A DNA stretch of 32,469 nt from a virus. Location: the IMG/VR virus record IMGVR_UViG_3300035069_000162, positions 1-32,469 of that record, one strand, 5' to 3'. This document shows positions 5,116-32,469 of the stretch, piece after piece (position 1 is the first letter of the stretch; every line of letters starts with the position of its first letter). The notes beneath the pieces are model-generated. The model saw only the letters and a list, made by a program, of their open reading frames with translations, made no database searches and had not been told where the DNA came from. Position numbers and translations under genes: made by a program.

Positions 5116-5353
5116 ATATGAAAAACGAGCAGAAGACCCCTGTTGGCAACATAAACAAAAGTGCATCGCAATGTTCACCCTCGATTCACACAACACTTCT
5201 TACTTATATCGAAGAGAAGATGGAACATATTACTGGCAGCATTGTAGAAAAGAAGCGGAAGACGATCTCTTCGTAGATGCTGATGGTTTACAATTAGAAC
5301 TTCTAGGTGATCCTGTTTTATCTAAAGAATTTATTTTTAAGGCAATATTCTAA
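5108..5353 (+). CDS. Hypothetical protein, 81 aa (GTG start)
   Basis: I place the start at GTG 5108 because GGAGG (5099-5103) sits four bases before it; the in-frame ATG at 5093 lies upstream of this site. The product is small and soluble with Trp/Cys/His (EDPCWQHKQKC, YYWQHCRKEAEDD). One CX5C-like pair and several His residues could bind a metal, but there is no clear zinc finger. Its end abuts the oxidase ATG, suggesting coupled translation with PTOX. Confidence 0.6.
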   Translation: MTEYEKRAEDPCWQHKQKCIAMFTLDSHNTSYLYRREDGTYYWQHCRKEAEDDLFVDADGLQLELLGDPVLSKEFIFKAIF

Positions 5354-5853
5354 TGAAAAAACTAAACACATTTGTTTTAGACTTCACAATAACTATCCTT
5401 GACTATTTGTATAGGGGTAGAGATATACAAAGATTTTGGGTGTTAGAGGTTATTGCTCGTGCACCCTATTTTTCTTTTATAAGTGTTTTACACTTTAAAG
5501 AGTCATTAGGACTTAGGGGTGATGAACACATCTATCTTATGAAAGAACATTTCTGGCAATCATTAAATGAAACAGAACATCTTGAAGAGATGGAACGTAG
5601 AGGTGGAGATGAAAAATGGATTGACAGATTCTTTGCCAAACACTTAGTTCTATTTTATTATTGGACTATGGTTGCATATTATTTCATAGATCCTTTAAAT
5701 GCGTATGATATTAATATGAAAATTGAGAAGCACGCATTTGAAACTTATACAAAGTATCTAGCATATCATCCAGAAGATAAAAAGATTGCAGAGATCGCAC
5801 AAGACGAACTCAATCACGCAAAAGAACTTCAACACGCAATGTCATTAATCTAA
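5353..5853 (+). CDS. PTOX: Plastoquinol terminal oxidase (alternative oxidase family)
   Basis: This di-iron membrane-associated oxidase moves electrons from plastoquinol to oxygen. The four ligand-bearing helices are visible: Glu32 in LEVIARAPYF, Glu73 and His76 in NETEHLEEM, Glu125 in IEKHAFETY, and Glu152 and His155 in DELNHAKEL. At 166 residues it is shorter than plant enzymes but matches cyanobacterial and cyanophage forms. During infection it is thought to act as an electron safety valve that limits photodamage while carbon fixation is shut down. It overlaps the previous stop by one base, and its own stop overlaps the next start (TAATG). Confidence 0.92.
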   Translation: MKKLNTFVLDFTITILDYLYRGRDIQRFWVLEVIARAPYFSFISVLHFKESLGLRGDEHIYLMKEHFWQSLNETEHLEEMERRGGDEKWIDRFFAKHLVLFYYWTMVAYYFIDPLNAYDINMKIEKHAFETYTKYLAYHPEDKKIAEIAQDELNHAKELQHAMSLI

Positions 5854-15200: not shown

Positions 15201-16685
15201 ATGAAGTTAGATAGAATCTGCATTATCGGAGGTGGTAGTGCAGGGTGGATGACAGCATCTATGTTGTCAAGACATTTTGAAGGAACTGGTATAGAAATAA
15301 CTGTTGTCGAAGCAGACATTCCAAGAATCGGAATCGGAGAAAGCACGACACAGTTTTTTAATACCTTTATACGGTATCTCGATCTCAAAGATGAAGATTG
15401 GATGCCACATTGTAATGCTACATATAAACACAGTGTCAAGTTTACTAACTTCAACCCAGACGGTTCATTTCATTATCCATTCGGTACAAGAGGCACAGAT
15501 ATACCTCTGACCGAGTATTATAATTGGAGGAGAGGAAGAAATATTGACAGTATGACCTTTTGTAGGGTATTCTCAGATGTTATAGACCCTATTGAAGTCA
15601 ACCGTCTTTATCCTCCATTTTTAGAAAGATACGTGGGTTATCACGTTGACGCACTATTATTCGGAGATTTTTTAAGAGATCATTATGCAATTCCAAAAGG
15701 TGTTAAACACATTAAAGGCACGGTCACTAACATTCAATCCTGCGTGGATGGGGTTAGCAGAGTTTACCTTGGCAGTGGGGATAGGTACGTTGATGGTGAT
15801 CTCTTCATAGATTGCACTGGATTCCGTGCATTATTGATGAATGAACTTAATGTGAAATGGGAAGATTGGAGTACACTATTAAAAAATGATTCTACTTGGG
15901 CAGTAAGAAAACCATATACAGATAAGAAAAAAGAAATACAACCATACACCGAGTGTACAGGTTTGAGTTCGGGATGGGTATGGAATGTACCTACTTGGGA
16001 TAGAATCGGAACGGGATATAATTATTGTTCACAATATATTACAGATGAAGATGCACTTGCAGAGTTTAAAGAGCATCTAGGAGTGGATATACCAGAGAAT
16101 ATGTTTAGATTACTCAAGTGGCCAACAGGGATTAGAGAGAAAGTATGGTCACATAACGTAGTGAGTATTGGTTTAAGTGCAGGTTTTATAGAACCATTAG
16201 AGTCTGGAGGACTATACTCAGTCCACGAGTTCTTATTTAAACTAATACAGGTGTTACCTAAAGCATCTAATAAATGGAACGGATTTCAACGAGAACAATT
16301 TAATCACTCAGTCAGAAAGAAATTTACATCATTCAGAGATTTTGTTGTGAAACATTATACTATGGGTTATAGAGATGATACACCGTTTTGGAAAGATTAC
16401 ACAGATATGGATGCACTAGGTGAGTTTCCAGATTTACTTACACAAGATTGGGAACAAATACAAAACATTAATTACATATCAGAAGGTGAAGCATACTTGC
16501 TAGGAGGTTATGAATATGATATAATGCCAGAACATTATGAAATGTTATCCAAAAGAAATGGATATAACATACCTGATTTTGAAGAACCGATCCTAAGAAG
16601 AACCTTTATGGATCAGACTTTGGGGAGATACCCGAACGCATATGAATACTATGAAAAGTACCTATATAATGAGCAAGGGAATTAA
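15201..16685 (+). CDS. Flavin-dependent tryptophan-halogenase-type enzyme 1
   Basis: Class-typical 494-residue enzyme. The FAD-binding start is ICIIGGGSAGWMTAS (7-20), followed by IGIGESTT (43-50). Lys76 in NATYKHSVKF aligns with the catalytic lysine that forms the haloamine-like intermediate. WVWNVP (259-264) corresponds to the WxWxIP signature, and GFIEPLES (328-335) carries the expected catalytic glutamate. With reduced flavin and halide such enzymes chlorinate or brominate an aromatic substrate; the substrate is not known here. Flavin reduction would have to come from a host or unlinked reductase. It stands directly in front of a divergent paralogue. Homologues occur in other cyanophages. 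Confidence 0.85.
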   Translation: MKLDRICIIGGGSAGWMTASMLSRHFEGTGIEITVVEADIPRIGIGESTTQFFNTFIRYLDLKDEDWMPHCNATYKHSVKFTNFNPDGSFHYPFGTRGTDIPLTEYYNWRRGRNIDSMTFCRVFSDVIDPIEVNRLYPPFLERYVGYHVDALLFGDFLRDHYAIPKGVKHIKGTVTNIQSCVDGVSRVYLGSGDRYVDGDLFIDCTGFRALLMNELNVKWEDWSTLLKNDSTWAVRKPYTDKKKEIQPYTECTGLSSGWVWNVPTWDRIGTGYNYCSQYITDEDALAEFKEHLGVDIPENMFRLLKWPTGIREKVWSHNVVSIGLSAGFIEPLESGGLYSVHEFLFKLIQVLPKASNKWNGFQREQFNHSVRKKFTSFRDFVVKHYTMGYRDDTPFWKDYTDMDALGEFPDLLTQDWEQIQNINYISEGEAYLLGGYEYDIMPEHYEMLSKRNGYNIPDFEEPILRRTFMDQTLGRYPNAYEYYEKYLYNEQGN

Positions 16686-16687
16686 TT

Positions 16688-18328
16688 ATGAAAGTTGAAA
16701 ACATTGTTATTGTGGGTGGTGGTTCATCAGGTTGGATGACTGCTGCTGCATTGTTAAAGTGCTGCCCGTGGACAAATGTAATTCTAATTGAATCAGACAA
16801 ACCTACAGTGGGTGTAGGAGAATCTACATTAGGTCATTTCAACAAGTATTTAAGAGCATTAGACTTAGAAGATAAAGACTGGATGCCTAAGTGTAATGCA
16901 ACATATAAGAATAGTATTCAGTTTACAGATTTTAGAGAGAAAGGAACAGTATTTCAATATCCATTTGGTAAATATGATTATAATGATACTGTAGAAGGTA
17001 TGAAAGATTGGTTTGATCTTGCTAGAGAAAGACCAGAAGAATATCCTCCAGAATCATTTGCAGAGTTCTTTAACAAAGAAAACTCAGCATTAGTAAAACA
17101 TAATAAACAATGGGATAATAGAGATAATAGATGGAGAAACTTTAATTGGTTAACTGACGTTGCATATCATTTAGATGCTGAAAAGTTTGCAGAGTATCTA
17201 AGGGATGATTATTGTGATAACTTTGATGATAGATTTACACATATTAGAGGTGAAGTCAGGGGATCGGTGAAAGATATAAACGCAGGTGGTTCACCCGCAG
17301 TCTCAAACAGATATATTAAACAGTTAGCAGTCAGATTAAATGAAGATAAAAGGACTGTAGGTGTTATTGGCGACTTGTTTATTGACTGTACTGGTTTTAA
17401 ATCAGTCCTATTAGAAGAGTATATGGGTACTAGGTTCATTAAATTTAATGATTTAGCAAACGATAAAGCATATTTTGCCCGCATACCATATCTCACACAA
17501 GATGAGAGAGAAAAACATATGCACAACGTGACTGACTGTCAAGCAGCGGAAAATGGTTGGTTATGGTCAATACCACTATGGAATAGGATCGGAGTTGGAT
17601 ACTGTTGGTCATCTCGATTTGCAATGGAAACAGAGACTAGACAAGAGTTTGAAACGTGGATAGAACAAAAATATGGTGTATCTCCAGAACAGTATGAGGT
17701 AGGAACTATTGATATAAAACACGGGTATCACGAAAAAGCGTGGAACTTGAATGTTGTTGCTATTGGACTGTCTTATGGATTTGTTGAACCATTAGAGTCA
17801 ACGGGACTGTTAACAACACACGAAAATATACTCAGACTGGTAGATGTATTATCAAGAAGAAGAGGATATGTAACACAAATAGAAAGAAACTGGTATAACT
17901 ACGCTGCACAGAGAGAAGTAATTGGATTTAGTAAGTTTGTTGCTATGCACTATGCTCTGTCACAAAGAACAGACAACCCTTATTGGAGGTGGTGTTCACA
18001 AAGAAACGAGTATATGACAGAGCAGTTTGATGGTTTGGTAAGAGTTAATGATAACTATGAAAGACTTGGATCATCATTAGACCTAGATCAAACTATGGAT
18101 GTGAATATGAATGGTATGAATTACATAGCAGCAGGTCAAGGAATGATGTTAGGTCGAGATTGGTATTTTGACCGTGATCCAGATGAACTTACATTTGTTG
18201 CAAACAGTCATTCAAAATACTCAAAAGAAGTCAATGACTTTGTTGAAAGTGATGACTGCCCTACACATTATGAATACTTAAGAGACTACATCTATGGAGG
18301 GGATGAATTACGTGCTGAACTTATTTAA
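16688..18328 (+). CDS. Flavin-dependent tryptophan-halogenase-type enzyme 2
   Basis: A 546-residue paralogue of the upstream enzyme with all landmarks: IVIVGGGSSGWMTAA (6-20), VGVGESTLGHF (41-51), Lys74 in NATYKNSIQF, WLWSIP (291-296) and GFVEPLESTG (364-373). It has about 50 extra residues, mostly in an insert after residue 97 (DYNDTVEGMKDWFDLARERP), likely near the substrate pocket. The gap from the first gene is 2 nt, so the two are translated together. Tandem divergent copies may act on two sites of one substrate or as a heteromer; this is inference. Confidence 0.85.
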   Translation: MKVENIVIVGGGSSGWMTAAALLKCCPWTNVILIESDKPTVGVGESTLGHFNKYLRALDLEDKDWMPKCNATYKNSIQFTDFREKGTVFQYPFGKYDYNDTVEGMKDWFDLARERPEEYPPESFAEFFNKENSALVKHNKQWDNRDNRWRNFNWLTDVAYHLDAEKFAEYLRDDYCDNFDDRFTHIRGEVRGSVKDINAGGSPAVSNRYIKQLAVRLNEDKRTVGVIGDLFIDCTGFKSVLLEEYMGTRFIKFNDLANDKAYFARIPYLTQDEREKHMHNVTDCQAAENGWLWSIPLWNRIGVGYCWSSRFAMETETRQEFETWIEQKYGVSPEQYEVGTIDIKHGYHEKAWNLNVVAIGLSYGFVEPLESTGLLTTHENILRLVDVLSRRRGYVTQIERNWYNYAAQREVIGFSKFVAMHYALSQRTDNPYWRWCSQRNEYMTEQFDGLVRVNDNYERLGSSLDLDQTMDVNMNGMNYIAAGQGMMLGRDWYFDRDPDELTFVANSHSKYSKEVNDFVESDDCPTHYEYLRDYIYGGDELRAELI

Positions 18329-19103: not shown

Positions 19104-19405
19104 CTATTGACGAACTAATCCAAAATTTCTATCTACAACAGAAACAGGTAGATTTAGAAATTGAAAACTATGACAAAGAGTTTGCTGACAAAAAATTAAA
19201 CCCATACGGTGTTACAACCATTGAGTTTGAAAAACGATCTGAAGCAATTAAGAAAAGATCACAATTAGAAGGTGCTATAGATGCCCTAATGATTTGTAAA
19301 CGTGATGTTCTTGGTGATGACAGTGAAGTTTCTATTCCAAACAACCTTGAGGTTGAAGGTGGTGGAAATGAAGAAATGGAGATTATAGGTGGATCATCAT
19401 CTTGA
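19100..19405 (+). CDS. Hypothetical coiled-coil protein, 101 aa
   Basis: Residues 1-70 are a predicted helical, charged region with heptad-like spacing (FYLQQKQVDLEIENYDKEFA ... FEKRSEAIKKRSQLEGAIDA), followed by a glycine/glutamate-rich tail (EGGGNEEMEIIGGSSS). The start overlaps the previous stop and the end overlaps the GTG of the next oxygenase. It might act as a small adaptor or dimerising partner, but this rests on context only. Confidence 0.6.
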   Translation: MTIDELIQNFYLQQKQVDLEIENYDKEFADKKLNPYGVTTIEFEKRSEAIKKRSQLEGAIDALMICKRDVLGDDSEVSIPNNLEVEGGGNEEMEIIGGSSS

Positions 19406-19988
19406 ACCATTAGATGAGGTTCATTGGTTATGGAAACTCAAATACGAGTTTGCATACGAAGGAGAGTCTCTACAAGAACATATCGGTAAACTGATAGATC
19501 ATACTGTACAGAACTATGGAACTGGATCAGCATTAGAAACTGGTGCATCATTTTCTACAGTATATAATCAGGAACATTCTCCACATAATTGGGAAGTGTT
19601 AGAGGATTTGTTCGTATTTCTACAACCAAAGTTACAAGAGATATGGACACATTGGGGATATAGTAACAAAATAACAAAACCCGTTCGTTCTTGGGTAAAC
19701 GTACATAAAAAAACGGGAAAAACTATGGAACATTATCATAATCAATGCCCTATGGTTGTTAGTTGTTATTTAAAAGCACCAAAGAAAAGTGGAAACTTTG
19801 AATACCGAGATCCATTGGAATACCATAGATGGGGTAGTCCAGGGGAACCTCAAATTTCATTATGGAGAGAAGTTGAAGTAGAAACAAATGATATAATAGT
19901 ATTTCCAGGGTGGTTAAAACATAGAACACAGGTAAACCAAACTGATGAAGATAGAGTTTGTTTAACTATTAATTATGATTGCGATTAA
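19389..19988 (+). CDS. 2OG-Fe(II) oxygenase-like protein A
   Basis: The GTG start is preceded by GGAG at 19378-19381. The 199-residue product has the pattern of the 2OG-Fe(II) oxygenase family covered by TIGR02466/PF13759: SWVNVHKKTG (101-110), a metal site EHYHNQCP (His115, His117), SCYLKAPKKSGNFEYRDP, then NDIIVFPGWLKH (distal His178) and an Arg189 within EDRVCLTINY to bind 2-oxoglutarate. The usual HxD is here HxH/HxN, as often in this subgroup. It would hydroxylate an unknown substrate. It is the first of a run of seven such genes. Confidence 0.78.
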   Translation: MDHHLEPLDEVHWLWKLKYEFAYEGESLQEHIGKLIDHTVQNYGTGSALETGASFSTVYNQEHSPHNWEVLEDLFVFLQPKLQEIWTHWGYSNKITKPVRSWVNVHKKTGKTMEHYHNQCPMVVSCYLKAPKKSGNFEYRDPLEYHRWGSPGEPQISLWREVEVETNDIIVFPGWLKHRTQVNQTDEDRVCLTINYDCD

Positions 19989-22935: not shown

Positions 22936-23638
22936 CTACGAACCTAATTTAATTGACTCAGGAGAGGATTGGGTAGTCTGTAAATCAGAAGTTGTATCCA
23001 ATGAATCAGAGGAAATGAAAGTACAACTTGGTAGAGCATATCGTCTATTCAAGAATACTTTTACAGGGTGTGACTCGTCATTAAAAAATGATGGACTAAC
23101 ACTTGATGCACTACCAGATTTATTTTCTCAGGTAGATGCACGACAAGAAGATATGGAACAACTAAAAAATATGAAATCGGGAGACTTAAGTGGATATAGA
23201 TTTTATAATGTATTTAATTTAACTTCTCCTAGTCCTTTGTTTTATCATCTATTAAAAGAAATTAGTGTAATCGTAAGAAAACATTTAGGTAACTTTGGTG
23301 TTAATCCTGATGACCCATTGTGGATGCAATGTTGGATGAATTTTCATAAACCAGATCAAGTGTTAGATTGGCACGATCATCATTTTCCGTGGCACGGATA
23401 TATTAGTATCGACCCAAAAGACTCAATAACAAAATTCAAAGAGCATTTACCAGTAGGAACATACGAGTATAATATAATCAATAAAATTGGGAATATCTAC
23501 TTGGGGCCTGGGTTTTCGAGGATGCACAAAGTCGTAGTTAATAACGATTATGAAGGCGATAGGATTACTTTAGGGTTCGATATTATAACTCAATCAACAC
23601 TACCTGACGATCAATTCTCTCTCATTCCATTATTATGA
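22928..23638 (+). CDS. 2OG-Fe(II) oxygenase-like protein F
   Basis: The 236-residue protein has a helical N-terminal half (to about 125), then WMNFHKPDQVLDWHDHHFPW with His149 and His151, HGYISIDPKD, and the distal GFSRMHKVVVNNDYEGDRIT with His200 and Arg212. The metal site reads HxH or HDH rather than HxD, a variant seen in this superfamily, so activity is likely but not certain. It overlaps the previous gene by 8 nt and the next by 4. Confidence 0.7.
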   Translation: MRNYEPNLIDSGEDWVVCKSEVVSNESEEMKVQLGRAYRLFKNTFTGCDSSLKNDGLTLDALPDLFSQVDARQEDMEQLKNMKSGDLSGYRFYNVFNLTSPSPLFYHLLKEISVIVRKHLGNFGVNPDDPLWMQCWMNFHKPDQVLDWHDHHFPWHGYISIDPKDSITKFKEHLPVGTYEYNIINKIGNIYLGPGFSRMHKVVVNNDYEGDRITLGFDIITQSTLPDDQFSLIPLL

Positions 23639-24267
23639 ACTTATCAGACTCACTAGAAAATGTAGCAGACACAAATGTGTATGGTGTCTTTATGCAACCA
23701 GTAGGAAAGTATAAAGTAAAGAATCACGCAAAATTCAAAACTATCATTATGCAATATATTGCTGAATTAGATGGTTCTAAATTAGAAAATAAGCACCCTA
23801 CTATATCTGTTAATGTCTCACAATTAGGAGATCATCAAATCCTTGAACTACCAGAATTTAGAGAATTAAAAAACGAGATCAAGAACGCAGTTAATGAGGT
23901 AAACAAACAGGCATTTTGCTATGAACTAACTGATGGCACACACTTTGCTGACAGTTATTTGGAATTAGGACAACAGGGTGCGTTATATGCCCCACACGAA
24001 CATAGTAATTGTATCTACTCAGGAACTTATTACGTTAACTTTGATAGAGAAAGGCATACTATGATGAAATTTAGGAGAAATATAATTTCATCACATTATC
24101 CTATACTTCAAGTTGGTACAACACAAATGAACGCATTTAATCAATTAGACTGTACAGTACCGTATGATGAAGGTGATATTATAATTCACCCCCCTAACTT
24201 ACAACACGGATATGAAGGGTCAGGACACGCTAACAGAATTACATTAACTTTTAATGTTGCCCCTTGA
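23635..24267 (+). CDS. 2OG-Fe(II) oxygenase-like protein G
   Basis: A 210-residue member resembling the TIGR02466 type: LYAPHEHSNCIYSGTYYVNF gives His121-x-His123 and the following strand, and EGDIIIHPPNLQHGYEGSG plus HANRITLTFN gives distal His191 and Arg201. A hydrophobic helical N-terminal half probably forms the dimer or substrate face. It is the last clear member of the cluster; its stop overlaps the TTGACG of a promoter. Confidence 0.76.
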   Translation: MNLSDSLENVADTNVYGVFMQPVGKYKVKNHAKFKTIIMQYIAELDGSKLENKHPTISVNVSQLGDHQILELPEFRELKNEIKNAVNEVNKQAFCYELTDGTHFADSYLELGQQGALYAPHEHSNCIYSGTYYVNFDRERHTMMKFRRNIISSHYPILQVGTTQMNAFNQLDCTVPYDEGDIIIHPPNLQHGYEGSGHANRITLTFNVAP

Positions 24268-26095: not shown

Positions 26096-26310
26096 GTGGA
26101 GATTATGAGACACTAGAAACCAACCAACCAAAAATAACATACTCAGAGGAGATCAAAATTGATGGGGAGGACATACAGATAGTGATGAGACAAGTAGAGT
26201 CAATTCATTGTCAAGTAGCAGAATACCCCACGAGTGAATACTTACAGAGTAGATTAGAGTTAGTTCATTGTGAATTGAAAAGACTCAAAGAAAAATACGA
26301 GGACAATTAG
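26092..26310 (+). CDS. Hypothetical acidic protein, 72 aa
   Basis: A short strand region (ITYSEEIKIDGEDIQIVMRQ) followed by a helix with two cysteines (SIHCQ and LVHCELKRLKEKYED). The gene ends in codons for Glu-Asp-Asn and a stop; the GACAAT of that end is the first dyad arm of cassette A. It closes the 25036-26310 unit. Confidence 0.6.
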   Translation: MSGDYETLETNQPKITYSEEIKIDGEDIQIVMRQVESIHCQVAEYPTSEYLQSRLELVHCELKRLKEKYEDN

Positions 26311-29527: not shown

Positions 29528-29713
29528 ATGATTGACACAATGTTAAATAGCGTTGATGAGACATTCGGAAACACACTTGCCGAACTCATCAAAGAGTATG
29601 TCACAGAATTAGTAGATCATCAAACTGACATCATTACAGACTCAGATTGGTTTTACGAAAAGGTAGAGAAAATGGTTGATGAAAGGGTAGCGGAGAAATT
29701 AAATGCTAACTGA
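29528..29713 (+). CDS. Hypothetical acidic helical protein, 61 aa
   Basis: Helix-rich acidic protein (LAELIKEYVTELVDHQTDII, then WFYEKVEKMVDERVAEKLNA). First gene of cassette C and the upstream partner of a paralogue-like gene. No function recognised. It overlaps the next gene by 11 nt, with GGAG (29692-29695) seven bases before that start. Confidence 0.58.
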   Translation: MIDTMLNSVDETFGNTLAELIKEYVTELVDHQTDIITDSDWFYEKVEKMVDERVAEKLNAN

Positions 29714-30005
29714 AAACTGGACAGTAGATCAAAAAAAGAAACTACTTGATGAATATGTGTTATTTCGCATAGAAGAAATGACTAGAGACGAAATGGCATC
29801 ATACGTCTATGATAGTATGAGACAAGAGATCATAGTATCAAGACCTGATCTTACACTAGACGAGACTCTTAAGCAAGAAATTGACGAGTATGATGAATAC
29901 TTGTATGAAAAACTTACTGACTATGTGTTAGACAAACCAGACTCATACTCAGCATTATGTGAGTTTTTAAGAGATCGACAGGACAACATTTATTATGACA
30001 ATTAA
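29703..30005 (+). CDS. Acidic helical protein, family shared with the 31577 gene, 100 aa
   Basis: The pattern LLDEYVLFRIEEMTRDEMAS, then YVYDSM, recurs in the protein at 31577 (LIEIFVERVVDNMNTVQLAE, then YVSADM), so the two are likely paralogues. The rest is acidic and helical (EIDEYDEYLYEKLTDYV). It ends with Tyr-Asp-Asn and a stop encoded inside the cassette D dyad. It may be a DNA- or protein-mimic, but no evidence fixes a role. Confidence 0.6.
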   Translation: MLTENWTVDQKKKLLDEYVLFRIEEMTRDEMASYVYDSMRQEIIVSRPDLTLDETLKQEIDEYDEYLYEKLTDYVLDKPDSYSALCEFLRDRQDNIYYDN

Positions 30006-30078
30006 AATATTGTCACATTAACTATTGTATTCTCTACAAAACTGTTTTAATATTAAATCATACAAACACCAACAAATT
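29997..30078 (+). promoter_or_regulatory. Repeated stem-loop/promoter cassette, copy D
   Basis: Dyad GACAAT-TAAAAT-ATTGTC (29997-30014, perfect arms), overlapping the upstream Asp-Asn-stop codons. TGTCACA at 30011-30017, TTGTAT (30025-30030) 17 nt before TAATAT (30048-30053). The second stem is weak here. A leader rich in A and C leads to ATG 30079, with no Shine-Dalgarno sequence. Confidence 0.78.
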
Positions 30079-30264
30079 ATGAAAAAAGTTTCATTTGCAT
30101 TTATTCTTGACAACTTAACTGAATTAGGTTGGGATTACACCTGCGGTAGAATGTCAAGATCAGGTATGGAAATCTATGACGGTATTATGAGACATTGCGG
30201 TGTCTTAAAAGAAACAGAGCATTGGAATGAAGATGTCTTTGCAGAGTCTAACGGAGATTGGTAA
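30079..30264 (+). CDS. Hypothetical protein, 61 aa
   Basis: The start at ATG 30079 follows cassette D. A compact sequence (KKVSFAFILDNLTELGWDYT, then CGRMSRSGMEIYDGIMRHCG) has two Cys and alternating helices. Its stop overlaps the ATG of the ArdA-like gene (TAATG), making the two co-translated. Function unknown. Confidence 0.55.
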   Translation: MKKVSFAFILDNLTELGWDYTCGRMSRSGMEIYDGIMRHCGVLKETEHWNEDVFAESNGDW

Positions 30265-30701
30265 TGGGAAAAGCAACAGGACAAATGCAAGAAGAAACAA
30301 GAGAACTTCTTGACCATTATAATAACCTATACAACTGGGATTATAATGAAATGTGTAGGTTCATTGAAAACTATGGAGAGACATATTTTTTAACCTACTA
30401 TGACATATATCATAGACTTTGTGAAGATTATGGTACAGAGTTAGTTGATCTGTTTTCAGATTACTTTGATGTGGATACAGTACCACATTTTGAGAATATG
30501 TACGAGGGTCAATTTGAAACAGCAAAAGATTTTGCAGAATACTATTGTACTGAGGTAGATGAAGCAACAAAAAATCTACCAGATTATGTGACACTTGACT
30601 ATCAAGATATATGGGATAACAAACTCTCAAAAGAATATGTTGAAATTGATTGCTCTATGGTAGATCATACCTATGGACACATATTCAAGTTGAAGTATTA
30701 A
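30264..30701 (+). CDS. ardA: ArdA-like antirestriction protein, 145 aa
   Basis: Start at ATG 30264, with GGAG seven bases upstream (30253-30256). The second half matches ArdA style: FENMYEGQFETAKDFAEYYC corresponds to the family's F..xYxGxYxSxxDFA, then LPDYVTLDYQDIWDNKL corresponds to the LP....DYxxxxxxL step, and the protein ends in GHIFK (family GHVFR). It is acidic throughout, as expected of a DNA mimic. ArdA proteins bind type I restriction enzymes in place of DNA. The length is a little below the usual 165. It sits in the early-type region where protection against restriction would be needed. Confidence 0.6.
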   Translation: MGKATGQMQEETRELLDHYNNLYNWDYNEMCRFIENYGETYFLTYYDIYHRLCEDYGTELVDLFSDYFDVDTVPHFENMYEGQFETAKDFAEYYCTEVDEATKNLPDYVTLDYQDIWDNKLSKEYVEIDCSMVDHTYGHIFKLKY

Positions 30702-30704
30702 AAA

Positions 30705-30782
30705 GACAGTTTAAATACTGTCACACAGACTATTGTATTCTATACACAATAGATTTAATATTAGATCAGTTACAACAACACT
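30705..30782 (+). promoter_or_regulatory. Repeated stem-loop/promoter cassette, copy E
   Basis: Dyad GACAGT-TTAAAT-ACTGTC (30705-30722), perfect arms with a changed base pair compared with D and F. TGTCACA at 30719-30725, TTGTAT (30733-30738) 17 nt before TAATAT (30756-30761), with arms CTATTGT/ACAATAG forming the second stem. The leader CAGTTACAACAACACT matches copy F exactly. ATG at 30783. Confidence 0.78.
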
Positions 30783-30926
30783 ATGACTCTTAAACAACTT
30801 ATTCGAGAGTATGTCAATGACCACTTCGATCACTTTGGATTCTATCCTTATGAAGTTGAAGTAGATGGACAAGTTTACTCATACGGTGGATACTGGCAAA
30901 TTTTAGAAGATACGAGGTTCGACTAA
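30783..30926 (+). CDS. Hypothetical protein, 47 aa
   Basis: ATG 30783 directly follows cassette E. A helix (LKQLIREYVNDHFDHF) leads into a beta hairpin (YEVEVDGQVYSYGGYWQI). Stop and next ATG overlap (TAATG). Function unknown. Confidence 0.58.
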   Translation: MTLKQLIREYVNDHFDHFGFYPYEVEVDGQVYSYGGYWQILEDTRFD

Positions 30927-31191: not shown

Positions 31192-31431
31192 ATGAAACAA
31201 GATTTTAACAGAGATTATCAACCAGAGGGAGTGAAGTACCATTTCCCTGATGATGACCCATATCAAGAGAGTAACGAAATTTACTACAATATGGTAGATT
31301 TTCTAGATGACTCAGAGGTACATCAAATATGGGAGATTGTGGGTAAGGCAATGGACAGAAATAATATTGTCACAACAGACAACGAAAGTTTATCTGTTAG
31401 GGTGTATGATGAAATCAGTTACGAGGATTAA
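31192..31431 (+). CDS. Hypothetical acidic protein, 79 aa
   Basis: Acidic sequence with a Pro/Tyr-rich start (YQPEGVKYHFPDDDPYQESN) and a helix (EIYYNMVDFLDDSEVHQIWE). No membrane segment. It is two bases after the previous gene and lies in a run of small genes. Function unknown. Confidence 0.55.
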   Translation: MKQDFNRDYQPEGVKYHFPDDDPYQESNEIYYNMVDFLDDSEVHQIWEIVGKAMDRNNIVTTDNESLSVRVYDEISYED

Positions 31432-31436
31432 CACTT

Positions 31437-31577
31437 ATGCCAACAGTACCAACCTATGATTTCCCCCAAAGTCCGATCCTAATAATAGGATTCTTTGGGA
31501 TCTTAGTTGCACTAGCAGTATTGTTTGTTGCAAACAAATCATATTTTTCAAGTCCATTCAATGAGGATAACAAGTAA
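31437..31577 (+). CDS. Single-helix membrane peptide, 46 aa
   Basis: The N-terminal PTVPTYDFPQ is followed by one long hydrophobic helix (ILIIGFFGILVALAVLFVAN) and a short polar tail ending FNEDNK. The stop overlaps the next ATG (TAATG). It resembles small host photosystem or cytochrome subunits in size only; I do not match it to any. It is the only membrane peptide in this acidic region. Confidence 0.55.
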   Translation: MPTVPTYDFPQSPILIIGFFGILVALAVLFVANKSYFSSPFNEDNK

Positions 31578-31795
31578 TGGAACTCACTAAAAAACAACAC
31601 GACAATCTCATAGAAATATTTGTTGAGAGGGTAGTTGACAATATGAATACTGTTCAACTTGCCGAGTATGTATCAGCAGATATGATCGAATGTTTTGGTA
31701 GTATGCCACAACAAGAGTGTATAGAGAATATGTACTCATATTATGATGAGGAATTTGTTGAAGAACTAATAGAGGAGGTTAAGGAAATTGACTAA
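31577..31795 (+). CDS. Acidic helical protein, paralogue-like to the 29703 gene, 72 aa
   Basis: The FVERVVDNMNTVQLAEYVSA, then DM segment matches the helix of the 100-residue protein at 29703 (position-for-position spacing of M, A, YV and M). The end is acidic and helical (EEFVEELIEEVKEID). A GAGGAGG near its end could serve the next gene. Function unknown. Confidence 0.58.
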   Translation: MELTKKQHDNLIEIFVERVVDNMNTVQLAEYVSADMIECFGSMPQQECIENMYSYYDEEFVEELIEEVKEID

Positions 31796-32135: not shown

Positions 32136-32326
32136 TGTTAATGTGCAAACCAGTAAATACTTTCAAAACTGAAATATGTGTTGATTGTGGTAATCTATGT
32201 TCACTTGGAACAGGTAGATATGTCAATCGTTATGCAGTATATAACGAGGAAGTCGAGGGTTGGAGGTGTGGATTTTGTGCTGAAGAACTAGACGCACTTA
32301 TGGAAGATTTGATAGAGGACAATTAA
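32135..32326 (+). CDS. Small zinc-ribbon-like protein, 63 aa
   Basis: Two CxxC pairs, Cys15-x2-Cys18 (plus Cys22) and Cys45-x2-Cys48, are 26 residues apart with beta-type sequence between (GRYVNRYAVYNEEVEGW), the arrangement of a zinc ribbon. The C-terminal helix is acidic (LDALMEDLIEDN). It may bind nucleic acid or protein. It ends Glu-Asp-Asn-stop, with the final codons in the cassette F dyad. Confidence 0.62.
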   Translation: MLMCKPVNTFKTEICVDCGNLCSLGTGRYVNRYAVYNEEVEGWRCGFCAEELDALMEDLIEDN

Positions 32327-32395
32327 AATATTGTCACACTAACTATTGCATTATATACAAAATAGTTTTAATATTAAATCAGTTACAACAACACT
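32318..32395 (+). promoter_or_regulatory. Repeated stem-loop/promoter cassette, copy F
   Basis: Dyad GACAAT-TAAAAT-ATTGTC (32318-32335), TGTCACA at 32332-32338, TTGCAT (32346-32351) 17 nt before TAATAT (32369-32374), with AACTATT/AATAGTT forming the second stem. The leader CAGTTACAACAACACT is identical to copy E. ATG at 32396. Confidence 0.8.
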
Positions 32396-32469
32396 ATGAC
32401 CAACTATGAAGCATTATTAACTCTCATAGGAGACATCAACAACGCTTTTTGTCACTTAGAAGATGAGGA
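32396..32469 (+). CDS. Hypothetical protein, 3' end outside the window
   Basis: An open frame from the ATG after cassette F to the window edge (TNYEALLTLIGDINNAFCHL and an acidic continuation). Only 24 codons are visible; helical. It is the first gene of the cassette F transcript by analogy with the other copies. Confidence 0.5.
   Translation, partial: MTNYEALLTLIGDINNAFCHLEDE

Follow-up and report, generated by a model that had tools for sequence, protein, structure and literature searches.

ArdA of Tn916 (ORF18, PDB 2w82) consists of three domains, of which the first comprises residues 1-61 and the third forms the dimer interface, and from their mutants, Roberts et al. assigned antirestriction to domains 1 and 2 and antimodification to domain 3 (PMC3906837). 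A short form was described in 2025. This protein, sArdC, is a C-terminal-only ArdA of 114 aa that blocks EcoR124II and EcoKI in Escherichia coli, and it was proposed to occupy the DNA-binding cleft of the specificity/methyltransferase core of type I enzymes (PMC12548430). In 2026, sArdC and ArdA R64 were reported to relieve the repression of a promoter by AllR in E. coli, a pull-down being included for ArdA R64 (PMC13300388). Among phage-encoded proteins, Ocr of phage T7 is a DNA mimic acting against type I enzymes and therefore a candidate for a protein that works alike (PMC2806950), while the secondary structures of Ocr and ArdA are very different (PMC3906837).

The DNA analysed here (the window) is a virus record of 32,469 bases, whose nearest named DNA relatives are the cyanomyoviruses P-RSM6, P-TIM40 and S-SZBM1. 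All 184 phage records with near DNA matches to its first 25 kb were named Synechococcus, Prochlorococcus or Cyanophage, and the window contains an alternative-oxidase gene; the cyanophage origin assumed in the original prediction was thus supported. This alternative-oxidase family gene is located at 5353-5853 (Pfam E 5.7e-12) and probably encodes a plastoquinol terminal oxidase. The features considered below are as follows.

29997-30079, + strand: 83-nt repeat, copy 1, with stem-loop, TGTCACA and AT-rich box; candidate promoter of the gene pair 30079-30701
30079-30264, + strand: 61-aa ORF, PHROG 17030, function unknown (PHROG profile match)
30264-30701, + strand: ArdA-like ORF, 145 aa, member of PHROG 36653 ("anti-restriction protein") (ORF call and profile match)
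30264-30500, + strand: predicted all-helical N-terminal part, residues 1-79, in place of ArdA domain 1 (model and hhalign)
30501-30698, + strand: ArdA domain-3-like part, residues 80-145 (model, hhalign and structure match)
30705-30787, + strand: 83-nt repeat, copy 2, directly past the ArdA-like stop; candidate terminator and promoter of the next gene
32318-32400: 83-nt repeat, third copy

The ArdA-like ORF starts with ATG at 30264 and its stop codon ends at 30701; with a TTG at 30258 as the start, the protein would be two residues longer. Because its ATG shares one base with the 61-aa ORF (the last base of that ORF's stop codon), the two genes probably form one transcription unit.

The original prediction had recognized ArdA by the order of several motifs, and the stretches on which it relied (FENMYEGQFETAKDFAEYYC, LPDYVTLDYQD and GHIFK) were all found in this ORF in that order. 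The correspondence to ArdA held for the C-terminal part but failed for domain 1, which was undetectable. The Pfam ArdA profile (PF07275) matched residues 18-129 with 17.2 bits (E 0.0083), below its curated gathering score of 27 bits; the NCBIfam and PADLOC profiles did not match the ORF, and nothing credible was found when the PDB was searched by sequence. Considering this weak Pfam score and the many acidic neighbours, the likeness to ArdA could be ascribed to chance or to an acidic composition. Considering the relatives as well, 11 of the 17 members of phage set A1 matched Pfam ArdA at E <= 1 (best 0.00042), and the phage relative L065 cleared the cut-off (27.7 against 27 bits) and matched the full-length ArdA of a Pseudomonas phage at 2e-8. 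To keep clear of the annotation of the cyanophage family, a canonical-ArdA HMM was built from nine full-length proteins, eight ArdAs encoded on cyanobacterial and proteobacterial plasmids and one from a Pseudomonas phage. Among window ORFs of at least 40 aa, the ArdA-like ORF ranked first with this profile (E 8.4e-6), while the second ORF reached only 0.33 and no acidic neighbour did better; its score was 21.8 bits, and the maximum in 2,000 composition-matched shuffles was 8.3 bits. The shuffles, the bridge that L065 provides to Pfam ArdA and the structural match to 2w82 described below all argue against a chance likeness, which was refuted at the level tested and which we regard as extremely improbable.

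The relationship was not evenly distributed along the protein. An HMM of domains 2 and 3 of the canonical ArdAs gave 23.9 bits on the ORF, which was again first among the window ORFs. In contrast, the HMM of domain 1, whose canonical signature is Y.A.L..YNN..L.G.W and EE.A.H, did not match the ORF, and in the phage family of 48 members it produced just four matches (E 3.4 to 8.9). That the protein is a complete ArdA whose domain 1 is concealed was therefore rejected at the sequence level. When 17 phage proteins were aligned to the nine canonical ArdAs by hhalign, the match (E 6.7e-11, probability 97) covered residues 50-145, and the alignment to ArdA domain 2 started at about residue 50. The residues conserved in the family within the domain-3-like part are Y80, G82, F90, P106, W117 and F141. 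Based on the canonical HMM, the shuffles, hhalign and the L065 bridge, the family is very probably homologous to ArdA, and by sequence comparison this homology comprises domain 3 and part of domain 2.

A template-free model, computed from 48 phage sequences, was consistent with this division (pLDDT 91.1, pTM 0.81). In the model, the N-terminal part consists of predicted helices at 10-23, 27-37, 39-56, 58-68 and 70-75, and no strand precedes residue 80; the C-terminal part contains strand 80-84, helices 87-98 and 113-119, and strands 125-132 and 135-142. The VIA comparison, with 293 chains aligned, placed 2w82 first with Z 7.8 (in the range that VIA calls middling), rmsd 3.6 and 112 aligned residues, and the second chain had Z 3.6; the alignment to 2w82 spans model residues 2-142, given as end points. 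Plain Foldseek against the PDB found no match at E <= 0.001, its top matches being unrelated. In a viral structure library, the P-TIM68 member of the family was first (E 5.2e-10), and phages BRock and 4HA13 followed with antirestriction proteins at probabilities of 1.00 and 0.99 and weak E-values. Together with the HMM and hhalign, the structural match upholds the designation ArdA-like for domain 3 and part of domain 2, but not for domain 1 and not by the Pfam cut-off. Folded alone, residues 1-79 were again predicted to be all-helical (pLDDT 88.9), and their top PDB match was the SOUBA domain of UBAP1 (Z 4.5), 2w82 being absent from the listed matches; we read the SOUBA likeness as a common, generic helical arrangement. 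Ocr did not appear among the Pfam, PHROG or structure matches listed for the protein.

The original prediction had also pointed to strong acidity. The protein is indeed acidic (net charge -22, pI 4.2), but its neighbours are equally so: in charge density it ranked 7th among the 15 genes that lie from 28 kb onward and 7th among all 46 of the window. As an argument for DNA mimicry, acidity was therefore rejected as non-specific; it is consistent with such a function without arguing for it. Small acidic proteins are in fact the rule in this cluster, which, like the missed Pfam cut-off, would suit a protein that inherited the ArdA fold and changed its function, for example to a structural or assembly role without DNA mimicry. 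Such a change appears improbable to us, given that the core of domain 3 is conserved over 48 diverse sequences and that the allele exchanged at this locus (see below) is under purifying selection (dN/dS 0.16).

Among the described systems, the window protein corresponds to Tn916 ArdA in domain 3 and in a portion of domain 2 (profile residues 50-145, Z 7.8) and differs from it by the cyanophage-specific helical N-terminus that replaces domain 1; moreover, the ARD segment of ArdA is replaced in the cyanophage family by a segment with an invariant Trp. It resembles sArdC (ArdA_1576 of Lactococcus cremoris), which is likewise short and contains only the C-terminal dimerisation-interface part (PMC12548430), and the ArdA homology of the window protein is similarly limited to its C-terminal part. 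Compared by description only, sArdC differs in that it is encoded on a bacterial chromosome and is shorter, and no helical N-terminus of the cyanophage type is reported for it (PMC12548430). We favour, at a probability of about 0.6, a short sArdC-like DNA mimic that would block type I restriction of the host. This homologue lacking domain 1 would be made early after infection from a host-type promoter, along with the 61-aa gene upstream, and its acidic surface would, by analogy with the published sArdC, occupy the DNA-binding cleft of the type I specificity/methyltransferase core, so that the phage genome would be spared from cutting. The absence of domain 1, to which antirestriction was assigned together with domain 2, counts against this reading. 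If the reading is correct, the family would be a natural experiment on how small a portion of ArdA suffices to block a type I enzyme, since mutagenesis placed antirestriction in domains 1 and 2 (PMC3906837) and both sArdC and the cyanophage family do without domain 1.

Genomes of the host group contain type I machinery. HSDR_N, a domain that may also occur outside type I enzymes, was over its cut-off in 92 of 300 genomes sampled from the family to which one Prochlorococcus genome belongs; the remaining 208 had no HSDR_N above that cut-off. Among the six picocyanobacterial genomes examined first, one (Prochlorococcus sp. AG-436-C13) contained HSDR_N beside Methylase_S, the former in a frame of 1,040 aa and the latter as domains in an adjoining frame of 446 aa. 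Based on the 92 genomes, a type I target in the host is possible, although not universal. Type I enzymes are probably the main target; the main rival is that the DNA mimic acts chiefly on another DNA-binding protein of the host, for instance one that regulates transcription, serves as an accessory factor of RNA polymerase, belongs to the nucleoid or forms part of another defence system, and so aids host take-over. This would agree with the 208 genomes without HSDR_N, with the relief of the AllR-repressed promoter by sArdC and ArdA R64 (PMC13300388) and with the N-terminus, whose variation among cyanophage lineages would fit other targets. However, the ArdA-type proteins of the cited papers were first known as type I inhibitors, and we consider such a different main target rather unlikely. 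Should the favoured type I inhibition be true, it would mean that phages infecting the small cyanobacteria of the ocean are under real pressure from restriction; many of these hosts (208 of the 300 family genomes) are without HSDR_N.

The gene itself is not new, because its family is already annotated as anti-restriction protein. The PHROG 36653 profile matched it with E 1.3e-27 (residues 3-126 to profile positions 13-137 of 152), and by tblastn P-TIM68 showed 39% identity with 95% covered (E 9e-22). Other tblastn matches, many of them annotated anti-restriction, were found in S-PM2, S-SZBM1 and S-TIM5/54/66 and in the T7-like cyanophages S-B28, WH11-B and 7B11-B; the homologues bearing this label include those of P-TIM68, S-PM2, S-SZBM1, S-TIM5 and S-TIM54, and it looks as if the label had been given by similarity. 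The PHROG 36653 proteins (P-TIM68 gp061, S-PM2 p068, S-SZBM1 and S-TIM5) belong to the same family with the same predicted fold, and the window protein differs from them by the MGKxTGQMQE-type start and the longer TYGHIF loop, both of its own subgroup. A first scan of viral contigs revealed 11 relatives. The ORF was matched at E <= 1e-3 in 91 of 93 non-redundant phage loci, which were preselected in that they had been fetched for matching the ORF or a relative. In a genome scan for cellular relatives, sensitive to close relatives only, none of the 26 pattern matches encoded one.

In T7-like cyanophages and relatives, a different N-terminus precedes the same ArdA C-terminal module. Three loci (L019, 2324-2884; L065, 2671-3306; L068, 458-922) carry the module fused to a CGY...FTDFY..LLEA-like N-terminus that has no Pfam match of its own and presumably resembles the start of cyanobacterial AbrB-like proteins. 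The architecture without domain 1, the different N-terminus and the allele exchange described below seem to be the part that is undescribed; in the literature covered, mostly from outside subscription journals, we found no description of an ArdA architecture lacking domain 1 in cyanophages.

The locus is bordered by repeated elements. The palindrome GACANTTNNAATANTGTCACA occurs in the window in five exact copies and one with two mismatches (0.02 expected), and three of the copies belong to the 83-nt repeat (29997, 30705 and 32318). All five exact copies start where a gene ends and can fold into a stem-loop. Besides the three 83-nt repeats, repeated elements of this kind, with a stem-loop and promoter-like sequence, lie at the gene ends at 26302 and 29447. 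In comparable places, many related loci contain TGTCACA or TGGCACA followed by a spacer, frequently with a hairpin, and then TATAAT. Over 81 loci, this promoter-like motif was found 289 times on the gene strand and 36 times on the other, compared with 4-8 in shuffles, and in 29 of 68 loci it ended at most 200 nt upstream of the ArdA-like start. By the same regular expression, no TATAAT-type promoter was detected in the window from 24 kb on, where the copies have variant boxes. In the T7-like cyanophages, the ArdA-like gene sits ahead of the RNA polymerase gene. From this position and from the host-type promoter-like elements of the relatives we infer that the gene may be expressed early, as the original prediction had supposed. 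The stem-loop repeats are also similar to the cassettes of T4-like phages known as "promoter early stem loop", which are said to mediate gene shuffling (PMC4503421).

A comparison with the syntenic 90.6-kb contig L001 provided a case of exchange. While 13 neighbouring gene pairs had dS values of 0.03-0.40, the ArdA-like pair had a dS of 0.958, with 77% amino-acid identity and a dN/dS of 0.16. Identity between the two fell soon after the ArdA-like start codon and recovered inside the 83-nt element past the stop. Since dS was raised even more than dN, fast evolution of the protein was rejected, and the most likely reading of the difference from L001 is that a diverged allele, itself under purifying selection, has replaced the gene. 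Among the locus pairs, which are not independent and from which near-identical pairs were dropped, the gene was less identical than both flanks in 9 of 13 pairs with both flanks at 93% or more, and less identical than the mean flank in 106 of 173; this is a tendency only and does not support a general rule that the gene is always swapped. If the favoured reading is true, it would point to a slot for allele swapping through which counter-defence genes are traded among cyanophages. A broader proposal, tentative and on present evidence doubtful, is that the minimal DNA mimics of marine cyanophages form a large family of modular build, which kept the ArdA C-terminal module, lost domain 1, acquired lineage-specific N-termini and exchanges its alleles through promoter/stem-loop cassettes. 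The N-termini would then tune each allele to its own targets in picocyanobacteria, among them regulators of the host or defences that are not type I enzymes.

Several neighbouring genes were also recorded. Besides the ArdA-like gene, ORF 31192-31431 also lacks conservation with L001 (a partial match at 40% identity), most neighbours being at about 90% or more. Two DUF7326 proteins (29703-30005, E 4.2e-6; 31577-31795, E 1.2e-13) are encoded in the same cluster as the ArdA-like gene, and several related loci likewise have a DUF7326 protein near it. In P-TIM68 (L013; L118, 46248-48278), a putative methylase and a DNA methyltransferase are found about 4-6 kb before its ArdA-like gene, possibly forming a counter-restriction cluster. 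Elsewhere in the window, adjacent genes of the tryptophan-halogenase family (15201-16685 and 16688-18328; Pfam E 1.6e-100 and 2.5e-83) follow the tail-fibre region, and 2OG-Fe(II) oxygenase domains occur at 19389-19988 and 23635-24267, in a series of genes that look alike, extending from 19 to 25 kb.
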